Origin: Rhodothermales bacterium
GTDB lineage: Bacteria > Bacteroidota > Rhodothermia > Rhodothermales > Bin80
Length of the DNA: 64,000 nt
Reading direction: 5' to 3'
Assembly (NCBI GenBank): GCA_022822185.1
Contig: JAJECE010000050.1
Coordinates: 62,001 to 126,000, forward strand
Shown here: piece after piece, positions 18,203-63,000 of the stretch
Numbering within the stretch: position 1 is the first letter of the stretch
Layout: the number at the start of each line of letters is the position of its first letter
The notes under the pieces: model-generated
What the model was told of the DNA's origin: nothing
The model's database searches: none
What the model saw: only the letters and a program-made list of their open reading frames with translations
Translations under genes and position numbers: made by a program

Positions 18203-18388
18203 TTAACCCGACTTTCTACTGTTCCTTTCCTCCTGCACTTCCTTGCGGATCACATTGGCAAGATTCCGCAAGTCCAACATAGCTCTGCGAATACGTGCAC
18301 CCGCAGCATCTACATTTTTGTCGTGGAACTTATTGAAATCAGACTCAAGGTCATCAACAATTGACTTAAGTTCACTGTATCTGCTCAT
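18203..18388 (-). CDS. Histone H1-like (Hc1-type) small protein
   Basis: I choose MSRYSELKSIVDDLESDF (18388) as the start, giving 61 residues; the track start adds 30 unrelated residues. The sequence, with FNKFHDKNVDAAGARIRRAM and LRNLANVIRKEVQEERNS, matches the small Hc1/histone H1-like proteins found throughout Bacteroidota. Their DNA-related role is assumed from the family name and is not well established. It is alone, convergent with the efflux operon. Confidence 0.75.
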   Translation of the reverse strand: MSRYSELKSIVDDLESDFNKFHDKNVDAAGARIRRAMLDLRNLANVIRKEVQEERNSRKSG

Positions 18389-18771
18389 TGTAATTTGCTT
18401 GCTAAGCGTTTGGTTGTAAAAGTTTGTGTGATTAGGATTGAGTACCCGAATAAGACCAGTCAATTTAGACTGGCCCATTCAAAATTCCCGTTGAAACCGC
18501 CAATATACACAATTTGTTCAGATATACGGTGCAATTTCGAGTATTTATCTCTTATTTTTGCGTCTCTGCCATAAATTCAGCGCGAAATCGGGGAAATTTC
18601 CACTGAAACAAGCGCCCGAGGGAATGCAATCCACAGTTGGCATGCATCTTTACGAGGATGTAGCACTCAGGTATGACAGATGCATGGTGTCATTTACAAC
18701 GGAACGCCCGCGCTTCCTGGGGGATTCTCCAATCTCACTAGCTGCATTGGGCGCTTCCTATGCCTTTTTCA
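18389..18771. other. Gene-free interval
   Basis: No gene seen in about 380 bases. The right part is overlapped by a plus-strand ORF (18558-19040), which is antisense to the nuclease pseudogene and has no recognisable family. The left part should hold the promoter of the H1-like gene. Confidence 0.5.
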
Positions 18772-19979
18772 TTACCTGCTTGATTTTCGCTGATTGCATT
18801 TGCTGCAGAGTACCTGACAGTTTTCTATCACGGTACGCCCCCTTTTACCCAGGGTTCAATGTGATCCGCCTGAGCATCCTCCCAGGGCATCTCATCTTCC
18901 TGTGGATCAATGCATGCAAAATCGTGGAGCGGTTGTATCTGATACGCACACAATTTGCCCTGCTGTTGCCAGACTGTCTCCCGCGTTTCCTCATCAAAAA
19001 ATCTCGGTTCGAGGATCTGCGGATTCCTCTCCCCTTCTAGGATATATTGGTAGATCTGTCCTTTCTTTTTGAGTTCGGGGTAGTCTAGCATCTCCTGTGC
19101 ACGCGCATGTGTGTGCTCGGTATCATACTGCTGCTCTCTGTAGTTTGCATAGCGCATCCCCCAGTTGGGCTGCCCCATGATAGTACGCAGTCTGCTCGCA
19201 TCTGATTTTTTTTTGCGTTGAGCAGATGCCACATTAAAAAGAGAAGCAACCCATGTATGTACCTGCAGATAGTAGTCCCAGAGATCTTCGGCATTCTCTC
19301 TGTTACGCTTACACTGCATATAGGTGAGTATCTCCCTGTCATCCTTCGTCCCCAAACGCCAACGCAGAATCCGTTCAAGGTGCTGCTGGCGTTTTCTCTG
19401 ACCATCCAGTAGGTCATTGCACAGAATCGTCTGTCCGGCTGTTGTTGATGAGAAGTATGTTTTTGCTGAAGCGACCCAGGGACCGTCGCAAAGAGCATTC
19501 CGCACTTCCTGATTGGTTAGCTCCGCCGCCCCCTTATTGATGATCTTGAACCACATCATGTAATCGTCTCCCGATCCCTCCTCGCAAAAACACACCAGGA
19601 TTGCATAATCCATGAAGCGTGCATGCATTTTGTCATTGACCTCAACCTGATCATAGATGTATGACTCTCCGTCTAGATCAACTGCAAAGGCACTGTCTTT
19701 GACAAAGTCGCAAATTGTTCGGAGGCGCTGCTGCCCGTCAAGTACGCTGTAAAAACCGGGGGTCTCTTCGGCGAAATATATCAAGTTGATCGGATGTCCG
19801 CGATACACTGACTGGATCAGAGGAACCTGCCATTTGGCATCCCCTGATCGGATGTGCTCACGCTGGCAGGAGGGCGTAATGTTCAACTTTTCGCCTCAAC
19901 CGATTACGCTGTCGTCCTCTCGAACCTGATAGCCGTCAACGATCTCACTGATCTTGATCTGCTCTACATGTATTTTCAT
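18772..19979 (-). pseudogene. DUF262-HNH nuclease, inactivated by a nonsense codon and a frameshift
   Basis: The gene starts 4 nt after the methylase stop (MKIHVEQIKISEIVDGYQV) and has two lesions. Codon 28 is TGA (19896-19898), where relatives have an aromatic residue before GEKL; a TGG-to-TGA change would explain it. Near the 3' end, a five-base G run (18838-18842) shifts the frame; with one more G the protein continues ADHIEPWVKGG then RTVIENCQVLCSKCNQRKSSR and stops at 18772, completing an HNH motif. The DUF262 domain keeps its DGQQR motif. Intact, it would be about 402 residues, a ParB/Srx-fold NTPase fused to an HNH nuclease, probably restriction-like. Confidence 0.82.
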
Positions 19980-19983
19980 TGAT

Positions 19984-20976
19984 CTATCTTTTGTGACGGA
20001 TTAAGATACGGGCGTATTTCTTCTTTCCGTTTATGTAGGGGTACCCAAAATTAAACTCCGTGATCTTGGTGGTGGCCATCTGCCCCAATATCTCGAATTG
20101 TTCCGGGTTGTACTTATCCAGGAAGGTAATTGGCACCCCCATCGCACCATCGTAGTCACGCGGGATTTCGACGGTCTTACGCATCTCAATGGCATTATAG
20201 TTATCGTAGTGCGGATACTCCTCAAGGCTGTAGTCTTTGTACAGCACCATTTTTCTGTTGCGCTTCGCATGAGGAAGATTCGTAAACCAGATGCTTTGTG
20301 ATCTTCCCTTAACAGTGCCGTCAACTATCTTGTAAGCACTGCCTTCTTTTCTGGTTGCGATTAATTCATCAGCATAATTCTGGGGTACATCAAATAGGAG
20401 GTCTCTGCTCATGGGCGTATTCCCCACCCACAATCTACCGTCTCTAATCAGCGGAAATATCTCTTTATAGGTAATGGCATTTTTGTTGCCAATAATCAGA
20501 AATTGCTTCTCATGCCTCATTAGTTGGGCAACATACCCGCGAAAGAGTGAGAACGGTGGGTTCGTGCATACGATGTCGAACTGCTTTAGCAGTTCAATAC
20601 ATTCCGCACTCCTGAAGTCCCCGTCTCCCCGCAGCAGGGTCACATCAATTTCGTGCCGGTCTGCTCGTTTGTTGCCATCGCGATCACCTGTGTACTCCAT
20701 CATAACCGCCCGCTCAGAGTTATGCTGACTGAACAGATCCATGTTCTGGTTTTTATAGCATGTGTCGATGAGCCTCTTCAGCCCTAACGACTCGAAATTA
20801 TCACTGAAGTACTTCCAGAAATTGGATACCCGTAGATCATCACAGTTGCAGTAGACCGTCTTGCCCGTGAAGTGATCTCGGTAGTGTCTGACTTCGTTTT
20901 CGATGTCCCTGCGCTGCGTATAGAACTCATCATTCTTTGCCCGCTTCGCAGCGTTGACGTTTTGGTTCTGTGCCAT
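19984..20976 (-). CDS. EcoRI-family adenine-specific DNA methyltransferase
   Basis: 330 residues, essentially the length of M.EcoRI and its relatives (PF13651-type). It opens with AAKRAKNDEFYTQRRDIENE and has VYCNCDDLRVSNFWKYF, both hallmarks of this family, and the amino-methylase catalytic motif NPPF at 139-142. It transfers a methyl group from SAM to adenine N6 in a target site. It stays intact while the nuclease-like gene four bases downstream is broken. Such methylases are often paired with DUF262 proteins, so a modification/restriction-type defence pair is likely. The recognition site cannot be read from sequence. Confidence 0.88.
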   Translation of the reverse strand: MAQNQNVNAAKRAKNDEFYTQRRDIENEVRHYRDHFTGKTVYCNCDDLRVSNFWKYFSDNFESLGLKRLIDTCYKNQNMDLFSQHNSERAVMMEYTGDRDGNKRADRHEIDVTLLRGDGDFRSAECIELLKQFDIVCTNPPFSLFRGYVAQLMRHEKQFLIIGNKNAITYKEIFPLIRDGRLWVGNTPMSRDLLFDVPQNYADELIATRKEGSAYKIVDGTVKGRSQSIWFTNLPHAKRNRKMVLYKDYSLEEYPHYDNYNAIEMRKTVEIPRDYDGAMGVPITFLDKYNPEQFEILGQMATTKITEFNFGYPYINGKKKYARILIRHKR

Positions 20977-21562: not shown

Positions 21563-22234
21563 TCAGGTCAGGGTAAAGACAAAGGTCAGAGATGTGATGA
21601 CATTGACGGGAACTCCCTTGAGTTGACCAGGCAGAAACCGTGCAAATTGAACGGCCCGCAGAACTTCTTCATCGCATCCCGCTCCCAGCCCCCGGATCAC
21701 TGTCGGGAAGCGGACATGTCCATCTTTATCAATGATGAAGGCTACGGTCACCTGTCCCTCAAGGCTTGCCCGCCTCGCCCGTTCTGGATATCGAATTTCT
21801 TTGACCAGACTTTCCATGTTGCCGAGTAGGATTGGGATCTGATCTAGAAAGTCAGATAAATCCGGCAGGTTGTCGTATCCGCGAAAAGCGACCGGCATCG
21901 TCATTTCTATACGGGATGGCTGCAATCCAGCACGACGGGTGGAGAATCGACTATATCGGATGGACTGAATCGCTTTCTGTTTTATCATCTCGTCTGATCC
22001 CTGAGTAACAACAGGGTTCACGATCTGTCCGGTCTGATCCACAATAAAGGATACGAACACATGCTGATTCTCTGCTCCATTGTGAGGGATTAGAGGGGGC
22101 CCCTTGATCATGCTGAGAAACTCTGAAGGCTTCCTGTTGATTTGATCTACTTCCTGTAATGTCGCCTTAGGTGTGACACATGCGCTGAAACCTAGGCCAA
22201 GGAAGATGGCAAACAGTACGGTGATGCGGGTCAT
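21563..22234 (-). CDS. Lipoprotein with two TonB-like C-terminal domains
   Basis: 223 residues with a lipoprotein signal (lipobox GFSAC). Two successive TonB-C-like units follow. The first is at about 45-117 (VFVSFIVDQTGQIVNPVVTQG ... MPVAF). The second, at about 140-223, is RYPERARRASLEGQVTVAF with GLGAGCDEEVLRAVQFARFLPG. There is no membrane helix or proline-rich spacer, so it cannot work as a classical ExbB/D-driven TonB. It is the outermost member of an array of related lipoproteins next to a true tonB. Role unknown; it may bind TonB-box peptides or be a structural lipoprotein. Confidence 0.78.
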   Translation of the reverse strand: MTRITVLFAIFLGLGFSACVTPKATLQEVDQINRKPSEFLSMIKGPPLIPHNGAENQHVFVSFIVDQTGQIVNPVVTQGSDEMIKQKAIQSIRYSRFSTRRAGLQPSRIEMTMPVAFRGYDNLPDLSDFLDQIPILLGNMESLVKEIRYPERARRASLEGQVTVAFIIDKDGHVRFPTVIRGLGAGCDEEVLRAVQFARFLPGQLKGVPVNVITSLTFVFTLT

Positions 22235-22565
22235 GATAGTCTCCAGATACGCCCACCTTGGTGGGCTGGTTTAGGTCATGAGCGATTAATTTTAACACTC
22301 TCTTAACATTGAAGTAACAATAAGATAATACATTTTGTCCAATATTGCAAGAAAAGCCGATCATGGGTACTTCTTCCACGCTGAATCGATGAGGATCGGG
22401 CAGGAACACAGGGATGGCGTTCCAGGAAATGACCGTGTACAGCTACGCTCCTGACGAAGGGGTCATCAAGGGCGATGTCCGGGAGGAGATGCCGGTCTCA
22501 CAAATCCGAGATCAACCCGTCCAGTGTTGATACACGCGAATGATTTCTGGAGGAATGGAGGCGAT
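22235..22565. other. Intergenic stretch with only short unassigned ORFs
   Basis: About 330 bases. A 38-codon plus-strand ORF (22414-22530, MAFQEMTVYSYAPDEG...) shows coding-like composition and faint resemblance to IS3-type OrfA helices (REEMPVSQI), too weak to call. The AT-rich part near 22290-22350 probably holds the promoter of the two-domain lipoprotein gene. Confidence 0.35.
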
Positions 22566-22957
22566 TCAGTATAGCTTTCCTACCACAATCGACATTTTCA
22601 TTCTCCCGTTCACGGCGCGGCTATCTTGGTGACCGGGAGTGCATCTTACCTATTTGGTGATGAGCCGGATTACGTCCGCATTGCAATGCCGATCCGTACC
22701 CCGATAAAAGGATCACGCACATTCCCATTCTGATCTGTAACGAACTGTATGATGATTCGCCTGATTACATTGCAACACGCGCTATGGTCTAGATTCTGCA
22801 ATAGTACGTCAGGTTCCACAGTCAAGTCTGACGGCCTATCAATCACCTCATACACTTCGGGTAATTCACCCGTATTCAATGGAGACAGGACGGATTGAGA
22901 TGTGCAGCCGGCACACACAACAGCGAAGACAGGAAATAATAGAATTTCCCTTTCGTA
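22566..22957 (-). pseudogene. Decayed TonB-CTD lipoprotein gene
   Basis: A lipoprotein-like start (LLFPVFAVVCAGCTSQ) without an in-frame ATG is followed by a TonB-C segment (VIRRIIIQFVTDQNGNVRDP). One frameshift then leads to CNADVIRLITK, an in-frame TAG, and TPGHQDSRAVNGRMKM. These align residue by residue with CDEEAIRVLNEHAKFTPGRQDGRAVNVKM of the paralogue at 23747. Start loss, frameshift and stop make this a clear pseudogene of the same family. Confidence 0.7.
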
Positions 22958-23128
22958 ATGCAGTCAGCAGTTCTAATTTGAACTCCATTGAACCGTATCC
23001 GCTGATTCCAGGATCCTCCTGCACAGACAGAATTCTCTCTAATCCGAACGACTGGTTCAGGTATACGGGACACTTGGTTCAGGAATCATTGCAGATCTAT
23101 GTCGAGAGGTCATTGCGTGGATGAGACA

Positions 23129-23518
23129 TCATTGAAATGCGACAGGAAGAGTAAATTTCACCTTTACCAGCTCTCCGTTTAGCCGTCCTGGAATAAACTT
23201 GGCATGTTCTCGAACAACCCGGATTGCTTCCGCATCACAGGCAGGACCAAGGCCTTCAGGAACAGAGGGGGCAAGCACATTTCCATTTTCGTCCACGGTA
23301 AAATACACATCCACACGCCTCCACATCTTCGGGGAGTTCTCACGACACGCACGATGATTGACATGCTCTTGCAATCCGGCAATCCCTCCAATCAGTTGTG
23401 GCATTTGGCCACCGGGAGTGGAAACCGTCTCGGAAGGTAAAAACTCTGTTAAGGGTTGAGGTGTGCCGCAGGCGCTCACGCCAACGAGGAGCAGGAGTCG
23501 CAGGAGAGTACGGGGCAT
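23129..23518 (-). CDS. Lipoprotein with TonB-like C-terminal domain
   Basis: 129 residues: lipoprotein signal with lipobox GVSAC at about residue 16, a short linker with QMPQLIGGIAGL (shared by the whole array and by the true TonB), and a diverged TonB-C domain (VDVYFTVDENGNVLAPSVPEGLG ... HAKFIPGRLNGELVKVKFTLPVAF). The helix before the domain is disrupted by an insertion (NHRACRENSPKMWRR) compared with its paralogues. It lacks the transmembrane anchor and spacer of energy-transducing TonB. Confidence 0.75.
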   Translation of the reverse strand: MPRTLLRLLLLVGVSACGTPQPLTEFLPSETVSTPGGQMPQLIGGIAGLQEHVNHRACRENSPKMWRRVDVYFTVDENGNVLAPSVPEGLGPACDAEAIRVVREHAKFIPGRLNGELVKVKFTLPVAFQ

Positions 23519-23691
23519 GATCTACGATACATTCTATGGTCACTGTCGCTAAACAAATATAATGCCCGACCTCAAAAAAAAACAACTCCGTGCAAATCTC
23601 TCCTGCCCAAGGACACCATGATTTACGAACGGCCCCATCTGTGCTGACCAGTATTCTTTTGACCGGGATATGCTCCGGTTAAGGATCAAAA

Positions 23692-23728
23692 GATATGCCC
23701 TGCACCTCAAACAGGCACAGGGCATATC
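23692..23728 (-). terminator. Terminator-like hairpin after a TonB-CTD lipoprotein gene
   Basis: GATATGCCCTG (23692-23702) and CAGGGCATATC (23718-23728) form a perfect 11-bp stem. On the minus strand it is followed by TTTTGATCC. It lies 18 bases after the stop of the lipoprotein gene at 23747, so it probably ends that transcript. Confidence 0.65.
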
Positions 23729-23746
23729 CATTGGACGGGGGAGGAT

Positions 23747-24127
23747 TCAAGTCAATTTGAACGTGATTGGAAGTGTCATCTTCACATTTACGGCACGGCC
23801 ATCCTGACGACCGGGTGTGAATTTTGCATGCTCATTCAGGACTCTGATTGCCTCTTCATCACACCCCCCGCCGAGGCCCTGTACAATGGAAGCATCACGC
23901 ACATTTCCCTTTACGTCTACAACAAACTCTACAATAACTTTTCCCTCAATGCCCGCCATACGGGCGATCTCAGGGTACGTCGCATTTGTCAGCAGACTAT
24001 TTATGCCTCCAATGAGTTCAGGCATCTGCTCAACCGTTTCAAAAATTTCAGAGTCATCAACCGATTCAGACGTACTGCAGGCACTGACACTAATGAGAAT
24101 GAAGAAAAATAACAGGGTACGGATCAT
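23747..24127 (-). CDS. Lipoprotein with TonB-like C-terminal domain (duplicate 1)
   Basis: 126 residues: lipoprotein signal (lipobox SVSAC, Cys at about 17), acidic linker with FETVEQMPELIGG, then a complete TonB-C-like domain (TYPEIARMAGIEGKVIVEFVVDVKGNVRD ... CDEEAIRVLNEHAKFTPGRQDG). It is the tandem duplicate of the next gene upstream: both are 381 bp and begin exactly 627 bp apart, with similar upstream DNA. It has no TM helix for ExbB/D coupling. Confidence 0.78.
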   Translation of the reverse strand: MIRTLLFFFILISVSACSTSESVDDSEIFETVEQMPELIGGINSLLTNATYPEIARMAGIEGKVIVEFVVDVKGNVRDASIVQGLGGGCDEEAIRVLNEHAKFTPGRQDGRAVNVKMTLPITFKLT

Positions 24128-24373
24128 GGAAGTAGATTTCTATAGTTGGATTTCAATGACCACCAAAGCGAAGTTCAAGGTCATCATGACTAAATCTCTT
24201 GCCTGCCATGACAGATCGCTCAATCCTCTGGACGAGAGATCTCAACGATACAACCACCGACCTATGCACATCACACAGGGGGCTTTCCGGCAGGAAAGGG
24301 CTGCTGAAAGGGGTAAAAAATATTCTCTGCATCTTCGACAGGAACAGGACAGATCTGTGGCAATGATGGTCAC

Positions 24374-24754
24374 TCAACTCAACTTGAATATGACCGGAAG
24401 TGAGAATTTCACTTTTACCGGGTGCCCATCTTGTCGACCGGGAACGAATTTTGCGTGTTCCTTCAGGACTCTGATTGCCTCTTCATCACAGCCGGAACCA
24501 ATGCCGCGCACTACGGAAGGATCGTACACAGTGCCATTTTCATCCACAATAAACTGTACAATCACTCGGCCTTCCACCTTCATTCTGCGAGCAATCTCAG
24601 GATATCTTACCTTGGCCTGCAGCCCTGCAAAGCCTCCAATCAATGCAGGCATCTGCTCAACCATTTCAAAGGCTTCAGAATCATCAACCGACTCTGACAT
24701 ACTGCAGGCACTGACACCAATGAAGATGAAGAAAACTAACAAAATGCGGATCAT
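24374..24754 (-). CDS. Lipoprotein with TonB-like C-terminal domain (duplicate 2)
   Basis: 126 residues: lipobox GVSAC, the array-wide linker FEMVEQMPALIGGFAGL, and a TonB-C domain (RYPEIARRMKVEGRVIVQFIVDENG ... CDEEAIRVLKEHAKFVPGRQDG). This domain is closer to that of the neighbouring tonB than the other copies are, which suggests the array arose from tonB by loss of the anchor and gain of a lipoprotein signal. No own hairpin terminator was seen. Function unknown. Confidence 0.78.
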   Translation of the reverse strand: MIRILLVFFIFIGVSACSMSESVDDSEAFEMVEQMPALIGGFAGLQAKVRYPEIARRMKVEGRVIVQFIVDENGTVYDPSVVRGIGSGCDEEAIRVLKEHAKFVPGRQDGHPVKVKFSLPVIFKLS

Positions 24755-24941
24755 GGAAATAGATTTCTATAGTCTGGGTTTAAATGACCGTCAAAACGAA
24801 GTTCAAGGTCATTACGAATAAATGTCCTTCCATGACGGGTTGCTCAATTCCCTGAGCGATATCACAACAGTACCATCACCGAACCTATGCGCACACGAGA
24901 ACTGTCCTTCTGGCAGAAAAGGATTTCTGTCATGGGCCAAA

Positions 24942-24980
24942 AAAATGCCCTGAATCTTAGGAAGGTGCAGGGCATTTTTC
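24942..24980 (-). terminator. Terminator after tonB
   Basis: AAAAATGCCCTG (24942-24953) pairs perfectly with CAGGGCATTTTT (24969-24980) around a 15-base loop; the stem is flanked by an A run and a T run, so it gives a U-tract on either strand. It lies 15 bases after the tonB stop. Confidence 0.75.
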
Positions 24981-24995
24981 TTGAAAAGTAACGGA

Positions 24996-25661
24996 TTAAC
25001 GCAACTTGAACTGAATTGGAAGCGAGAATTTTACTTTCACCGGGCGACCACGCTGCCGTCCAGGAATGAACTTGGCATGCTCGGTAATGACTCGGATTGC
25101 TTCCTGATCGCAACCACCCCCAATACCGCGCACAACCGTAGGTTCGCTCACATCACCGTTTTCATCAACGATAAACTGCACAATCACGCGACCTTCCACA
25201 TTCGCCTTACGTGCGATTTCAGGATATCTTGCTTTAGACTGCAAGCCCGGAATTCCTCCAATCAATTCAGGCATCTGCTCAACAATCTCGAAGATTTCAG
25301 GCTCCTCAATCACCTCTTCTTCTTCCGGTGGAGGTGGCGGTGGCGGAACATTGATCGGCGCATCCAAGTCAAGCGAAGCATCAAGATCCAACTCGTCATC
25401 TTCCAGGATCTCGTCATTTGGGACTTCCACTGGAACAGGGGGACGCGGAGGTGGCGGCGGCTTTTGAATTTGCTCCGTCTGCAGGATTTCCTCCATTTGG
25501 ACAACTTCCTGCTGAACTTGCTCAATTTCCATCGCTTCCCCACGTTCTAGGTTTGCGTTGAACGCAAGAATGAGCAAGAGGAGTGAAGCGATCATTCCAA
25601 CCTGGACAAAGAAGCCGTAAGTTCGTTTTAGATCGGCTGCTGGAGCCTTACGTAATGCCAT
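24996..25661 (-). CDS. tonB: Energy transducer TonB
   Basis: 221 residues with the full TonB layout: cytoplasmic basic N-terminus, one membrane helix (about 18-36, GFFVQVGMIASLLLLILAF), a proline/acidic spacer with QKPPPPPRPPVPVEVP and NVPPPPPPPEEEE, and the TonB-C domain (about 135-221; YPEIARKANVEGRVIVQFIVDENG). It would carry proton-motive energy from ExbB/ExbD (not in this window) to outer-membrane receptors. Downstream lie at least four lipoproteins and one pseudogene that share its linker motif VEQMPELIGG and C-terminal domain. A strong terminator follows the gene. Confidence 0.93.
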   Translation of the reverse strand: MALRKAPAADLKRTYGFFVQVGMIASLLLLILAFNANLERGEAMEIEQVQQEVVQMEEILQTEQIQKPPPPPRPPVPVEVPNDEILEDDELDLDASLDLDAPINVPPPPPPPEEEEVIEEPEIFEIVEQMPELIGGIPGLQSKARYPEIARKANVEGRVIVQFIVDENGDVSEPTVVRGIGGGCDQEAIRVITEHAKFIPGRQRGRPVKVKFSLPIQFKLR

Positions 25662-33315: not shown

Positions 33316-36300
33316 ATGAGATTCAAGTTCGCGGCTATTGCTGGATTCGTTGTTCTGCTATTGACACTTACGGCTACCCTGCTACAGAAAGGAGAGATTT
33401 CAGAGTCTGATTCTTCAGAGACTTTGCACCACGAAGATACCTCTCCCTCAAAAGGGGATCCTGATCGCTTTTTCAAATACCACCGTGATATTAGAACCCC
33501 CATAGATGGCACAGAGGAGTATTCAGCAGGATATCAGATCAGGGAATTCCAGAAAGCGCTTGCAATGGCGAAAACCCCCGGGATCAAACTGGACTGGAGT
33601 GAACGGGGACCGGGAAATGTCGGTGGACGGACGCGGGCGCTTCTTGTAGATCCAGAGGATCCAAATATGCATACATGGTATGCAGGATCTGTGTCCGGCG
33701 GACTGTGGAAGACGACAGACGGGGGAGAAAACTGGGTGTCTCTGACGGACCATTTACCAAATCTGTCCGTCTCAGCCCTGGCCATGGTAGAAAGCAATCC
33801 CAATATTATCTACATGGGGACTGGCGAAAGTATGGCACAAGCCGGTTCGGTCGCAGGATATGGTATTTTCAAGTCATCTGACAAAGGTGAGACCTGGACA
33901 CAACTGGCTTCAACCGCAGATCGTGATCAGTTCAGATATGTGAACCGGCTAGCCGTAGATCCTTCAAATCCAGATGTGGTGCTGGCAGCCACCAATTACG
34001 GGATTTTCCGATCCACCGACGGTGGATCGAGTTGGGAACAGACCTCACAGGAAAGGGTCGTACAGGATTTACGAGCACAACCGGACAATTTCAACCGGCA
34101 GATTGCGTCTGCTAGACAAAGCGGGGAAATCCTGGTTTCAGATGATGCAGGGCAAACCTGGGAGTTTGCCTGGATTAACCATATCGACGAAATGCGCAGA
34201 ACCGAATTGGCGTATTCGCCCTCGCATCCAAACATCGCATATGCCTCTGTAGACGGAGCCGTTGAAGCACAACTCTATCGGAGTGATGACGGTGGTTTGA
34301 ATTGGTGGCCAACATCAGAAACAACGGACTGGAGTGGGTGGATGGGTGGACAGGGATGGTTTGATAATTCGATTGCAGTACATCCTTACGATCCGAACAT
34401 TGTGTTCGTTGGTGGAATTGAACTGTTTCGTCTTGTACTGTCTGGTGAAAAAATACCTGGAGACCCATTGCCGGGCAGGCTGAATGATGGAGGCACGGAT
34501 TCGTGGCTCGAATTTCGGAATATTGATGGGGAGGCGTTTGACGGCAGAGCCTATTCCGGAAGATTCCGGTCACTCGACACCGAAGAGGAGGATTTTACCA
34601 ACATCGAAATAAGGTTCGGCCAAGGTTCGCAAAAAGCCCACCGTTTCTGGGTTTCCAAAACCGCGGGCAGATATGGCAATGGAGGCCCCGAGGTTCCCTT
34701 CTTTCGCTACATGTTTGCCGATTATGTTGATATTCCTTTTCAGGTATGGGATGTGGACAATAACCGTCAGCTTATGGTTTCTTTTCGTGATCAGGCGGAG
34801 GATGGCAAATTCAATCTGATTGAATACTATCGCAGCGAAGATCTGGAGACCCGTGATTTGCAGAGTTATGAATTCATTTTTATTCATAAATACGATTACA
34901 GTGATGCTGCTCCTGATTCCCGTATCGCCCAAAATGGGGGCGTTGACAAAGGGATGGTTTATGGTCTGTTACCGGTTCTGGCATCCGGCGCTGCATGGAC
35001 TCCGGATCACCTGCCAAATCAGACGGTCACACTAGAATTCATCTATAACAGTTATTCCTATGTTCGATCCTTAGATGAGGAAATTGATCCAAGGAGGACG
35101 GTGCATGTGGACCATCATGGTATCTATCCATTACCAATTAATGAAGCTGAAAACAAATTCTGGATCCTGAATGTAAATGACGGGGGAGTTGCCGTATCCA
35201 AAGACAACGGCAAAACCTTTCGTGAGACGGACAGAGCCCACTCCGGTTATAATACTTCGCAGGTTTATGGTGTAGCAAAGGCACCGGGAATATCCGATTA
35301 TGTCACAGGCCTGCAAGATAATGGGAGTTGGAGATCGGGTGCCGCACCGACCAGTGGAAGTGGATGGAAATTCCTTCACAGTGGTGATGGTATTGAAACA
35401 GTCTGGCATCCCAGGGACAGCCGCAAAATCCTGATCACTGCACAAAGAGACCTCGTAGCCCGAACGACTGATGGCGGTGGAAGATGGGATCGAACGTCCC
35501 CCTTTGATGCCATAAATGGCATCTTTCTCACATCTATTGATAACAGTGATCGTGCTCCAGACGACGTATATCTGGTAAAGGCGGAGGGGGTTATGGTTTC
35601 GAGAGACTTCGGATTGACCTGGAATCTGACAGCAATTGAAGATTCGTGGAATTCCTGGGATGGATGTAAGGTTAGAGTTTCGCTTTCCAGATCAAATGTA
35701 GTATGGGCAGGCTGCGGACTGTATCCTTATCGGATGCTGCATGTTTCCAGAGACAGGGGCCAGTCCTTCAATCAAGCCGCCTTGCCCACAATGGACAATG
35801 CGCCTTGGGGTGAAATTTCCGGACTCGCAACGCATCCACTTGAAGATGGGACGGCATATGCACTCTTTTCCCTGCCATCTCAACCCAAGATTCTGGAGAC
35901 GAAGGATTACGGACAGACCTGGACGGATCTATCCGGTTTTTCGCCATCAGGAACCAGTATGAACGGATTCCCGAACGTCGCTGTGTATGACTTGATCATT
36001 ATGCCGCATGCACCGCATGTATTCTGGGCGGGCACAGAGATTGGTCTCTTTGTGTCAAATAATCATGGTGCTCAGTGGAATTATGCGGATAACGGTTTAC
36101 CTGCTGCATCTGTGTGGAGAATGAAGATTCGGGATGATGAACTCATTGTCGGCACGCATGGGCGCGGTGTATGGACGCTGCCTCTATCGGAAATTGACAT
36201 TTACACATCCACGGAAGAATTAGCTTCCGAATTGCCGTCTGAATTTAGCCTGAGCCAGAACTATCCGAATCCATTTAATGCGTCAACGAATATAGAATTT

Positions 36301-36504
36301 TCCATATCTCACGATTCACATGTCCGTCTTGCTGTTTTTGATGTGACCGGACGGAAGGTGTCGGATTTAACGGACCGGGTTTATGCGCCTGGGATACACA
36401 GATTACAATGGAATGCCAATGCTTATTCCAGTGGCATATACATCTACCGGATGGAGTTGGACGGCAGTATGGTTCACACGCGCAGAATGACCCTTCAGAA
36501 GTAA
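33316..36504 (+). CDS. Large exported Asp-box (BNR/sortilin-type) propeller with T9SS-like C-terminal domain
   Basis: 1062 residues with an N-terminal signal anchor (MRFKFAAIAGFVVLLLTLTA). I count about eleven Asp-box motifs of the S-x-D-x-G-x-x-W type (for example KTTDGGENW, KSSDKGETW, RSTDGGSSW, RTTDGGGRW, ETKDYGQTW), which mark sialidase/VPS10-like propellers, with an inserted jelly-roll-like domain around 375-610. The last about 80 residues are a sorting domain (SLSQNYPNPFNASTNIEF ... GRKVSDL). It is probably secreted or surface-attached; the ligand or substrate is unknown. Confidence 0.88.
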   Translation: MRFKFAAIAGFVVLLLTLTATLLQKGEISESDSSETLHHEDTSPSKGDPDRFFKYHRDIRTPIDGTEEYSAGYQIREFQKALAMAKTPGIKLDWSERGPGNVGGRTRALLVDPEDPNMHTWYAGSVSGGLWKTTDGGENWVSLTDHLPNLSVSALAMVESNPNIIYMGTGESMAQAGSVAGYGIFKSSDKGETWTQLASTADRDQFRYVNRLAVDPSNPDVVLAATNYGIFRSTDGGSSWEQTSQERVVQDLRAQPDNFNRQIASARQSGEILVSDDAGQTWEFAWINHIDEMRRTELAYSPSHPNIAYASVDGAVEAQLYRSDDGGLNWWPTSETTDWSGWMGGQGWFDNSIAVHPYDPNIVFVGGIELFRLVLSGEKIPGDPLPGRLNDGGTDSWLEFRNIDGEAFDGRAYSGRFRSLDTEEEDFTNIEIRFGQGSQKAHRFWVSKTAGRYGNGGPEVPFFRYMFADYVDIPFQVWDVDNNRQLMVSFRDQAEDGKFNLIEYYRSEDLETRDLQSYEFIFIHKYDYSDAAPDSRIAQNGGVDKGMVYGLLPVLASGAAWTPDHLPNQTVTLEFIYNSYSYVRSLDEEIDPRRTVHVDHHGIYPLPINEAENKFWILNVNDGGVAVSKDNGKTFRETDRAHSGYNTSQVYGVAKAPGISDYVTGLQDNGSWRSGAAPTSGSGWKFLHSGDGIETVWHPRDSRKILITAQRDLVARTTDGGGRWDRTSPFDAINGIFLTSIDNSDRAPDDVYLVKAEGVMVSRDFGLTWNLTAIEDSWNSWDGCKVRVSLSRSNVVWAGCGLYPYRMLHVSRDRGQSFNQAALPTMDNAPWGEISGLATHPLEDGTAYALFSLPSQPKILETKDYGQTWTDLSGFSPSGTSMNGFPNVAVYDLIIMPHAPHVFWAGTEIGLFVSNNHGAQWNYADNGLPAASVWRMKIRDDELIVGTHGRGVWTLPLSEIDIYTSTEELASELPSEFSLSQNYPNPFNASTNIEFSISHDSHVRLAVFDVTGRKVSDLTDRVYAPGIHRLQWNANAYSSGIYIYRMELDGSMVHTRRMTLQK

Positions 36505-60072: not shown

Positions 60073-63000
60073 ATGATACGCTCATCCATCACCACACTGC
60101 TGACCTTGTTTTGTGTGGTGACAACTGTTGCGCAGGATCATCGTCTGGAAGCCGTCCAGTCACTTCCAGAGGCTTCCCGCAGTTTGGTTGCGGAGTTGAA
60201 TATCTGGACGGACTTTTCCACAACCCAGACAGCAAACGGGCGGATTGATAACGAACTGGGCATCCTGCGGGCCGCCTACCGACTAAGTCTGGATATGACT
60301 CCAGAGTCCACGCTGGAGGCTACTGTAAGGTCATGGCTCACACGGGATGGGGAGGACTTCGGGATTGGTGCGCCGGAGGCGCTGCAGCTGGTGCAGGAAA
60401 AAGAGACCTATGGAGCCCATCACCTGACCTTTCAACAGACGCTGGCCGGTGTTCCGGTTTACGGCCGTTATGTACATGTAAATCTGAACCGGGCCGGATT
60501 GCCCGTGATGGCCATCAGCGGCTACGCCCCTCATCTGGAACGCGTGGATGCATTTCATTCTGTACCTGCGCTCAGCGCAGCACAGGCCGAATCTCTGGCA
60601 CAGCGTGCCGTCTCCAGAGATGGAGCAACCTCAACCCCTGCTGAACTTCTGGTCCTGCCCGGCCAGCCGCCGCGGCTGGTCTGGCGGACGGTTGCATGGC
60701 CGGACGATACCCCGGAAGAATGGGAAGTTCTCCTGGATGCCAATACCGGAGAGTTGATCCAATTACTGGATCAGCGCGTGCACTCGCACGCTCACCCGGA
60801 TCCGCCCCCTTCTAAAGTAGATGGGGAGGGGCAGGTATGGCTGTATGATCCGCTGACCGCCTCCGGCGCGTCCTATGGAGGCGACTATGTCGACAACAAT
60901 GATAAGAATAACGCAGCACTGTCTGCTCTGCTTCAGACCGTTACACTTCAAGATATTGAACGGGGCGGCGATGGAGACTACCGGCTGCGTGGACCGTGGG
61001 TGAGAATTACCGGTGAGGATGCGCCCGTAGAGAGTGATCCGACGGACTTTAAGTATACACGGGATAATCCGAATTTTGAGGCGGTTATGGTGTACTACTA
61101 TATTGATATGAGCGAGCGTTATATCCAGTCTCTGGATGTAGGAAGATCTCCACCGTCCCGCCCGATATCCGCAGATCCCTATGCATTTTCGCAGGATAAT
61201 TCCTATTACCTTCCGTCAAGGAGATCCCTGCACTTTGGATATGGCGGCGTGGACGATGCCGAGGATGCCGGCGTGATCCTGCACGAGTACGGCCATGCCA
61301 TCATGCATCATCATCTTGGATTTAGTACACGTCCATTACAGGAATGGGGAGTTCTTGGTGAGGGGTTTGGCGATTATTGGGCGGTCTCTTACCGCCGGGA
61401 TCTTATGGATCGTGGACTGGTTCCTGCAAGAGACTGGAAGCAGGTCTTCCCCTGGGATGGCGTTGCCTGGGGAGGGCGCCGCGTCGACGGGAATCATGAC
61501 TACGATGTGATCCAGCGGGACTGCAGAGGCACATGCAATATCTATACCTACGGACGAACCTGGGCGAGCCTGATGATGAAACTGTGGGAACGAATTGGCC
61601 GTGAGAATGCGGACCGTCTGCATCTGGCCGGGTTTTCATATCTGGAGCCCAGTAATTTCAAGCTTCCCGACATGGTTGAAGCAATCATAATGGCCGACGA
61701 AGCACTGAATAACGGACAATATACTGCCGACATTTATGACATCTTTGAACCCAAAGGATTTATTGAGTCCCCGGATGGGATTCCCGCCATTACCCACACT
61801 CCCCCGGATTGGCATATGGATCTCACGCTTCCCCTGAAACTTGAGGCGGATATTGAAGCGGCCGAGTTTTCGATTACCAGCGCGGATCTCCATTACCGCC
61901 TGGATTCGGGAGAGTTTGAAATAAAAGCATTAACGCACGAGGGGGGCACCAAATGGAGCACCGAACTCATGTTTCCTGCATCGGCCGCGCTTCTGGAGTA
62001 CTATTTTCGGGCTTCAACGGAAGTGGCAGCGGTGACCCAGCCGCGATCCGCGCCTGAAGACCTCTGGTCCGTACGTTTAGGTCCGGATACCCAGGCCCCA
62101 GCGATCACCTACACGCCTGTAATGCATGTAGTGCCGGAGGAAGTTCGGGACCCGCTCTCCATCCAGGTAACCGATGATAATGCCGTGTCCCGGGTTACAC
62201 TTGCCTATACGATCCATGACCCAAGGCAGGAAAGAACGACTTCCGGCACGCTTGAATTGCAGCGCTCAGGTAGCAGCACCTATACCCTGAAGATGCCATT
62301 TCCTGATGTTCCTGAAAGTGCCTTGCCGGGGGTATGGGTAGAGTATCGAATTATAGCATATGATGTTGCAGATCCGCCAAACAGGGCAGTATTTCCATCT
62401 TTGGAAGCACCGCAGTTGCGACTGGATGTGATCCCCGGCCCTGAGCAGCTTGGCGTATGGAATCCTGAAGATTGGCCAAATTTGGGCGATGGCGAGTGGG
62501 CCCCCAGAGAGGATGGGTTCGGATATGATGGGATGCTCTGGGTGACGGTGCCTGATGGGCCGTATAGTGACAAACCCGCGCAGAGTGTACTCTCTTTCCC
62601 CGAGGTCAATGTGGCCGGACACCCTGATGCGCATCTGGAATTCTGGCACTGGCATGACTTTGAGCACTCGAATGTTCCCAGGCCAGGAGAGGCGGGCGGT
62701 ATTCTTTATGATGGCGGACAGATTCAGTTTTCAACGGATGGCGGGCAGTCCTGGAGCGTTGCTAAGCCGCAGTGGGGCTATAACGGGGACATTGAATCCA
62801 CGCTCTCGAATCCGCTGTCGGGGACCCGTGCCTTCGGAGGGTCCAGTTTTGGCTGGCGCCGGGTCCGTGTACCTCTGCCGGATGCACCTGCAGGTGCTTA
62901 CCGCTTTGAAGTCCATACACGGCTTGCGTTTGGAACTGGAACCGGGAACTCAAATGCCACCACGGACAATTATGCAGGATGGGCCGTTCGGGATATACGT

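Follow-up and report, generated by a model that had tools for sequence, protein, structure and literature searches.

Can the C-terminal domain of TonB, generally seen as the working end of a powered transducer, be of use when it is carried by small lipoproteins? The question is raised by a gene array on the minus strand of the DNA studied here, a window of 64,000 nucleotides (positions 62,001 to 126,000 of contig JAJECE010000050.1) that is part of the 3.7 Mb draft genome of a Rhodothermales bacterium (assembly GCA_022822185.1, G000 below). Along this strand the order is tonB, LpA, LpB, LpC, a frameshifted remnant and Dbl (Table 1), and our check of the open reading frames (ORFs) gave the same coordinates as an earlier reading of the letters alone (the sequence-only reading). 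The four putative lipoproteins are, by the comparisons below, real, conserved genes under selection, and we suggest tentatively, as a possibility somewhat short of even, that they are outer-membrane proteins that dock, unpowered, on TonB-dependent transporters.

All five intact ORFs exceed the Pfam cut-off for TonB_C (24.6 bits), with E-values of 5e-20 for TonB, 5e-22 for LpA, 1e-22 for LpB, 1.6e-9 for LpC and 3.6e-26 for Dbl, in which two stretches match; domain 1 of Dbl covers positions 17-78 of the profile and so is without the N-terminal part (N-terminal helix). Each of the four lipoproteins (4/4) has a signal peptide with an n- and an h-region and a terminal lipobox Cys; the LpC lipobox escapes a strict regular expression owing to an Arg at -10, and is plain by eye. 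Together with three-frame translation of the remnant, these matches bear out what the sequence-only reading had seen here, namely one canonical TonB, four TonB_C lipoproteins (one of them with tandem domains) and a pseudogene. Its claim of a common linker VEQMPELIGG holds in part: the motif is exact solely in TonB and LpB, is altered in LpA (VEQMPALIGG), LpC (GQMPQLIGG) and Dbl (LDQIPILLGN), and is absent from the remnant. Structure prediction for LpA also goes its way. The AlphaFold model of LpA has a predicted local distance difference test (pLDDT) score of about 96-98 over residues 31-126; its best Foldseek match in the PDB is 6i97 (TonB:FoxA), and other TonB C-terminal domains are matched too, including those of 2gsk (BtuB:TonB) and 2grx (FhuA:TonB). 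The model gives LpA, with high confidence, a TonB C-terminal-type fold. Strand 115-123, which we take to be the counterpart of the TonB-box-pairing strand in the 2gsk and 2grx complexes, is intact in both LpA and LpB. The Dbl model (pLDDT 58, from too few sequences) was not used.

The anchor is where these proteins part company with TonB. In LpA and LpB about 14 residues lie between the Cys and VEQMP, where TonB has about 93, of which 19 are Pro, and the lipoproteins have neither a transmembrane anchor for contact with ExbB/ExbD, a lipobox signal peptide standing in its place, nor the long Pro-rich spacer. Because both are absent the lipoproteins are, judging from sequence, not drivable by ExbB/ExbD in the known way, in agreement with the sequence-only reading, which had the lipobox replacing anchor and spacer. 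LpA and LpB would be unable to bridge the periplasm, and therefore their useful site of action would be the membrane of their own anchor. We know of neither established lipoprotein sorting rules nor a worked-out surface-export signal for Rhodothermales. The residues after the Cys are SMSES, STSES, GTPQP and VTPKA, so none of the four lipoproteins has Asp at +2, and none has after its Cys a surface-export signal of the K(D/E)2, SDDDD or SDDFE kinds found in Bacteroidota lipoproteins (PMC5080379). These absences point to periplasm-facing lipoproteins of the outer membrane. Possible partners are many, since the genome has 46 Plug-domain matches; its ExbB gene and two ExbD genes lie together on contig C87.

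Unpowered docking would work as follows. Copies of the 3' end of tonB would have exchanged the transmembrane helix and Pro-rich spacer for a lipoprotein signal peptide, and the mature lipoproteins would be anchored in the inner leaflet of the outer membrane, where the short tether of LpA and LpB would hold TonB_C at the periplasmic face of outer-membrane proteins. On one or more TonB-dependent transporters the domain would then bind the plug, the TonB box or the N-terminal extension, drawing no energy from ExbB/ExbD. As the unpowered counterpart of TonB, the lipoprotein would compete with it, park it or gate it. Here we infer acylation, location, orientation, partner and effect on uptake alike. 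A bolder and doubtful extension is that such outer-membrane-tethered mimics, made repeatedly by joining a lipoprotein signal to a tonB end, hold transporter TonB boxes or shield them across the lineage, and so choose which receptors get energy or block TonB-dependent import of bacteriocins and phages.

The arrangement is not peculiar to this genome. The gene order in the genus is yjeF, tonB, array, Dbl and a MacB-type permease. Dbl is found in G000, G001, G004, G006, G007 and G008, and G009 has it in broken form. The middle of the array is variable: single-domain lipoproteins occupy it in G000, G002, G006 and G009, and their place is taken in G004, G007 and G008 by a protein anchored in the inner membrane that lacks a spacer and has two or three TonB_C domains (a two-domain stretch of this kind is also present on another contig of G009). 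The arrays of G002, G003, G005 and G009 reach contig ends, which makes absences there unsafe. Among the family neighbours, a lipoprotein gene follows tonB in G010 and precedes it in G011, and a two-domain lipoprotein gene precedes it in G014; in all, a TonB_C lipoprotein adjoins tonB in 11 of 16 family genomes (G000, G001, G002, G004, G006, G007, G008, G009, G010, G011 and G014).

How the copies arose can be read in part from the flanking DNA. The LpA/LpB duplication takes in upstream DNA (72.7% identity over 670 nucleotides) and the DNA 3' of tonB resembles that 3' of LpA; because of these two matches the duplicated unit was probably the tonB end together with its 3' flank, fronted by an added lipoprotein signal. 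The domain tree groups the second domains of Dbl into a genus-wide clade (98/99), and the first domains into another (100/99). A single clade of all lipoprotein domains in the family tree is rejected by the approximately unbiased (AU) test (p = 0.007), and such a clade within the genus alone is not (p 0.067); the tree has only 95 columns, and gene conversion with tonB could give the same result. Conversion of TonB to lipoprotein appears to have recurred, because the family-wide test rejects one common origin for these domains. Ratios of nonsynonymous to synonymous substitution (dN/dS, by Nei-Gojobori) are about 0.13-0.23 for Dbl orthologues and mostly 0.03-0.08 for TonB orthologues (up to 0.16 in close pairs) where dS is unsaturated, and the TonB C-terminal domain gives 0.10 against LpA (dS 1.5) and 0.07 against LpB (dS 3.3). 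In Dbl both TonB_C domains are more conserved than the N-terminal part. Every maintained copy tested is, on these ratios, under purifying selection, and none shows a dN/dS sign of positive or diversifying selection. A second decayed TonB_C lipoprotein gene lies on contig C129 of this genome (L109:5938-6201); its orthologue in G003, the nearest relative, is intact (L111:3426-3905), and the pair has a dN/dS of 0.62. The birth and decay that the sequence-only reading saw in this locus is thus real, as the array pseudogene, the C129 gene, the broken LpA of G003 (below) and the indication of more than one origin attest; the selection for diversity that it drew from this finds no support.

Several observations weigh against unpowered docking. 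G003 is 95.8% identical to our genome over 7.3 kb, and the homology breaks off within LpA codon 7; by this alignment the gene is broken, and hence dispensable, there. The inner-membrane forms of G004, G007 and G008, being spacerless, would have difficulty in reaching the outer membrane. The YP helix, which is among the best-conserved features of TonB, is lost in LpC and in domain 1 of Dbl, and because of this the members of the array need not have one common binding mode. In LpC and its relatives the altered YPEIAR helix carries a Cys, and in 8/8 such domains, several of which are kin, it is accompanied by a Cys just before the DEEA motif, a residue present overall in 80/172 (about 47%); this suggests, short of proof, a disulfide between the two. 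Finally, TonB_C is in this order a promiscuous C-terminal module, whose partner need not be a transporter. Our census of the order took in 149 distinct TonB_C ORFs from 36 genomes; length was one ground for their selection, and no fraction of the sample is therefore a frequency. A strict lipobox rule marks 28 of the 149 ORFs, four of which we discounted by eye (L161, L153 and L143, where the match is internal to an M56 protein, and L212, which has a transmembrane helix); the rule misses LpC, and the Dbl of G008 was merged with that of G004. TonB_C lipoproteins are present in at least seven of the order's families, and the domain also ends signal-peptidase-I-type, TPR, cytochrome, VWA, M56 and CarboxypepD_reg proteins.

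A breadth of anchors of this kind would be expected if the target were a generic one. An affinity of the TonB C-terminal domain for peptidoglycan has been proposed, and the lipoproteins might link peptidoglycan, or else the C-terminal domain of TonB itself, with the outer membrane, in a Pal-like or docking role that involves no transporter. Multivalent binding would suit the tandem domains of Dbl and the two or three domains of the inner-membrane forms. In PMC10771500, however, peptidoglycan binding is shown for ExbD and not for TonB_C, and the lipoproteins contain no Pfam peptidoglycan-binding family; we regard this link as rather unlikely.

The decay seen in the array pseudogene, the C129 paralogue and the LpA of G003, with the differences in copy number among genomes, is what one would see if the young single-domain copies were transient by-products of tandem duplication and signal-peptide capture, Dbl alone being maintained. 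This is unlikely in our judgement: the dN of LpA and LpB against TonB is only 0.15-0.23 although dS is high or saturated, so they have long been kept as proteins, and similar lipoproteins adjoin tonB in other genera too. The same recurrence, with the gene upstream of tonB in G011 and G014, goes beyond what a single duplication would give, and makes it quite unlikely that TonB_C here binds an unrelated periplasmic partner, as it may in its fusions to TPR, M56, cytochrome or VWA proteins, and lies beside tonB merely through tandem duplication, even though the very different N-terminal parts of proteins ending in TonB_C, in the order and in Bacteroidota, and the Cys-pair subgroup without the YP helix would both agree with that. 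That the lipoproteins are surface-exposed, or otherwise do not face the periplasm, is very improbable, for although surface exposure is common among Bacteroidota lipoproteins (PMC5080379) no known export signal follows their Cys.

Table 1. Features of the tonB array and related proteins (window positions, or positions in the named locus)
Feature	Position	Strand	Description
TonB (canonical)	24996..25661	-	transmembrane anchor, Pro-rich spacer, C-terminal TonB_C domain; orthologues in 10/10 genus genomes
LpA	24374..24754	-	TonB_C lipoprotein, lipobox VSAC
LpB	23747..24127	-	TonB_C lipoprotein, lipobox VSAC; tandem duplicate of LpA
LpC	23129..23518	-	TonB_C lipoprotein, lipobox VSAC; YPEIAR helix replaced, extra Cys
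Pseudogene	22580..22965 (ends approximate)	-	lipobox CAGC and TonB_C remnant, with frameshifts/stops (three-frame translation)
Dbl	21563..22234	-	two-TonB_C lipoprotein, lipobox FSAC; genus-wide orthologue
Hairpin and T run 3' of tonB	24945..24985	-	-18.6 kcal/mol, z -3.8; probable terminator
Hairpin 3' of LpB	23690..23735	-	-33.1 kcal/mol, z -6.6; probable terminator
Inner-membrane tandem TonB_C protein (G004)	L096:10899-12134		no Pro-rich spacer
Inner-membrane tandem TonB_C protein (G008)	L100:5380-6615		no Pro-rich spacer
Inner-membrane tandem TonB_C protein (G007)	L099:8782-9579		no Pro-rich spacer

We considered a single operon with tonB and rejected it, since the strong hairpins after tonB and LpB make separate transcription likelier; a scan for consensus promoters gave matches no more than expected by chance. 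Elsewhere in the genome, a profile search finds TonB_C at three further loci. Other genomes have long TPR proteins that end in TonB_C (L226:3100-5976, L227:2515-5820 and L228:2851-5451), one of which has a protein-kinase domain; a set of paralogues, apparently secreted and about 435-507 amino acids long, with a C-terminal TonB_C and an N-terminal part outside Pfam (L104:9542-10948, L105:2777-5842, L106:397-3303 and L107:371-1678), of which two stand in tandem in G004 and G009; and a probable lipoprotein family of the order (L168, L171, L185 and L206) with a motif like RWWxxGVDTT and a C-terminal TonB_C.

Between the array and the MacB permease sits a type II restriction-modification pair (18828-20976), made up of an EcoRI-type methylase (19984-20976) and a GmrSD/REase-like protein (18828-19886); relatives have the permease homology close behind Dbl, without such a gap. 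A defence island was considered and set aside, as PADLOC detects only these neighbouring restriction-modification genes and no lipoprotein. A histone H1-like Hc1 protein (18203-18478) lies beside them, and a Sortilin/BNR-repeat protein with a type IX secretion C-terminal signal is encoded at 33316-36504.

In open-licence papers we found no description of a lipidated TonB, of TonB_C lipoproteins, of tandem TonB_C or of periplasmic TonB decoys of this class. If lipid-anchored TonB_C does bind transporters at the outer membrane, it would be a passive competitor or gate for TonB traffic, and would bear on how a few TonBs serve dozens of transporters. Many proteins annotated as "energy transducer TonB" in the phylum may not be transducers, and even without a role in uptake the lipoproteins mark an apparently recurrent route from the end domain of a motor protein to a lipoprotein.

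Among the nearest known systems is the TonB transducer itself (PF03544, TIGR01352), with which the lipoproteins share the C-terminal domain, its fold, the receptor-binding strand and (in LpA and LpB) the linker motif; they differ from it in being lipid-anchored, in having no transmembrane helix or Pro-rich spacer and sometimes two domains, and in being unable to couple to ExbB/ExbD by the known route. The M56/BlaR1-type and CarboxypepD_reg proteins likewise carry a C-terminal TonB_C outside canonical TonB, and some adjoin TonB_C lipoproteins (L035, L047), but their N-terminal domains are different; we know of no settled function for TonB_C in them. Two parallels exist for a TonB_C placed in the outer membrane. 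A TonB_C-like stretch at positions 8-85 of the model for MxcH-type siderophore receptors (NF038079) matches LpA, LpB and Dbl with E about 1e-12, far under the whole-protein cut-off, but there it belongs to the receptor itself and here to a separate small lipoprotein. In FCB-group bacteria a Wzi-like barrel fusion, whose gene shares an operon with that of a TonB-like protein, also places TonB_C on a protein of the outer membrane, although the anchor is a barrel and the operon a different one (PMC12419801). Finally, GltG and GltJ of the Myxococcus gliding machinery show TonB_C serving outside nutrient uptake, but as inner-membrane proteins that work with a proton channel (PMC5349195).

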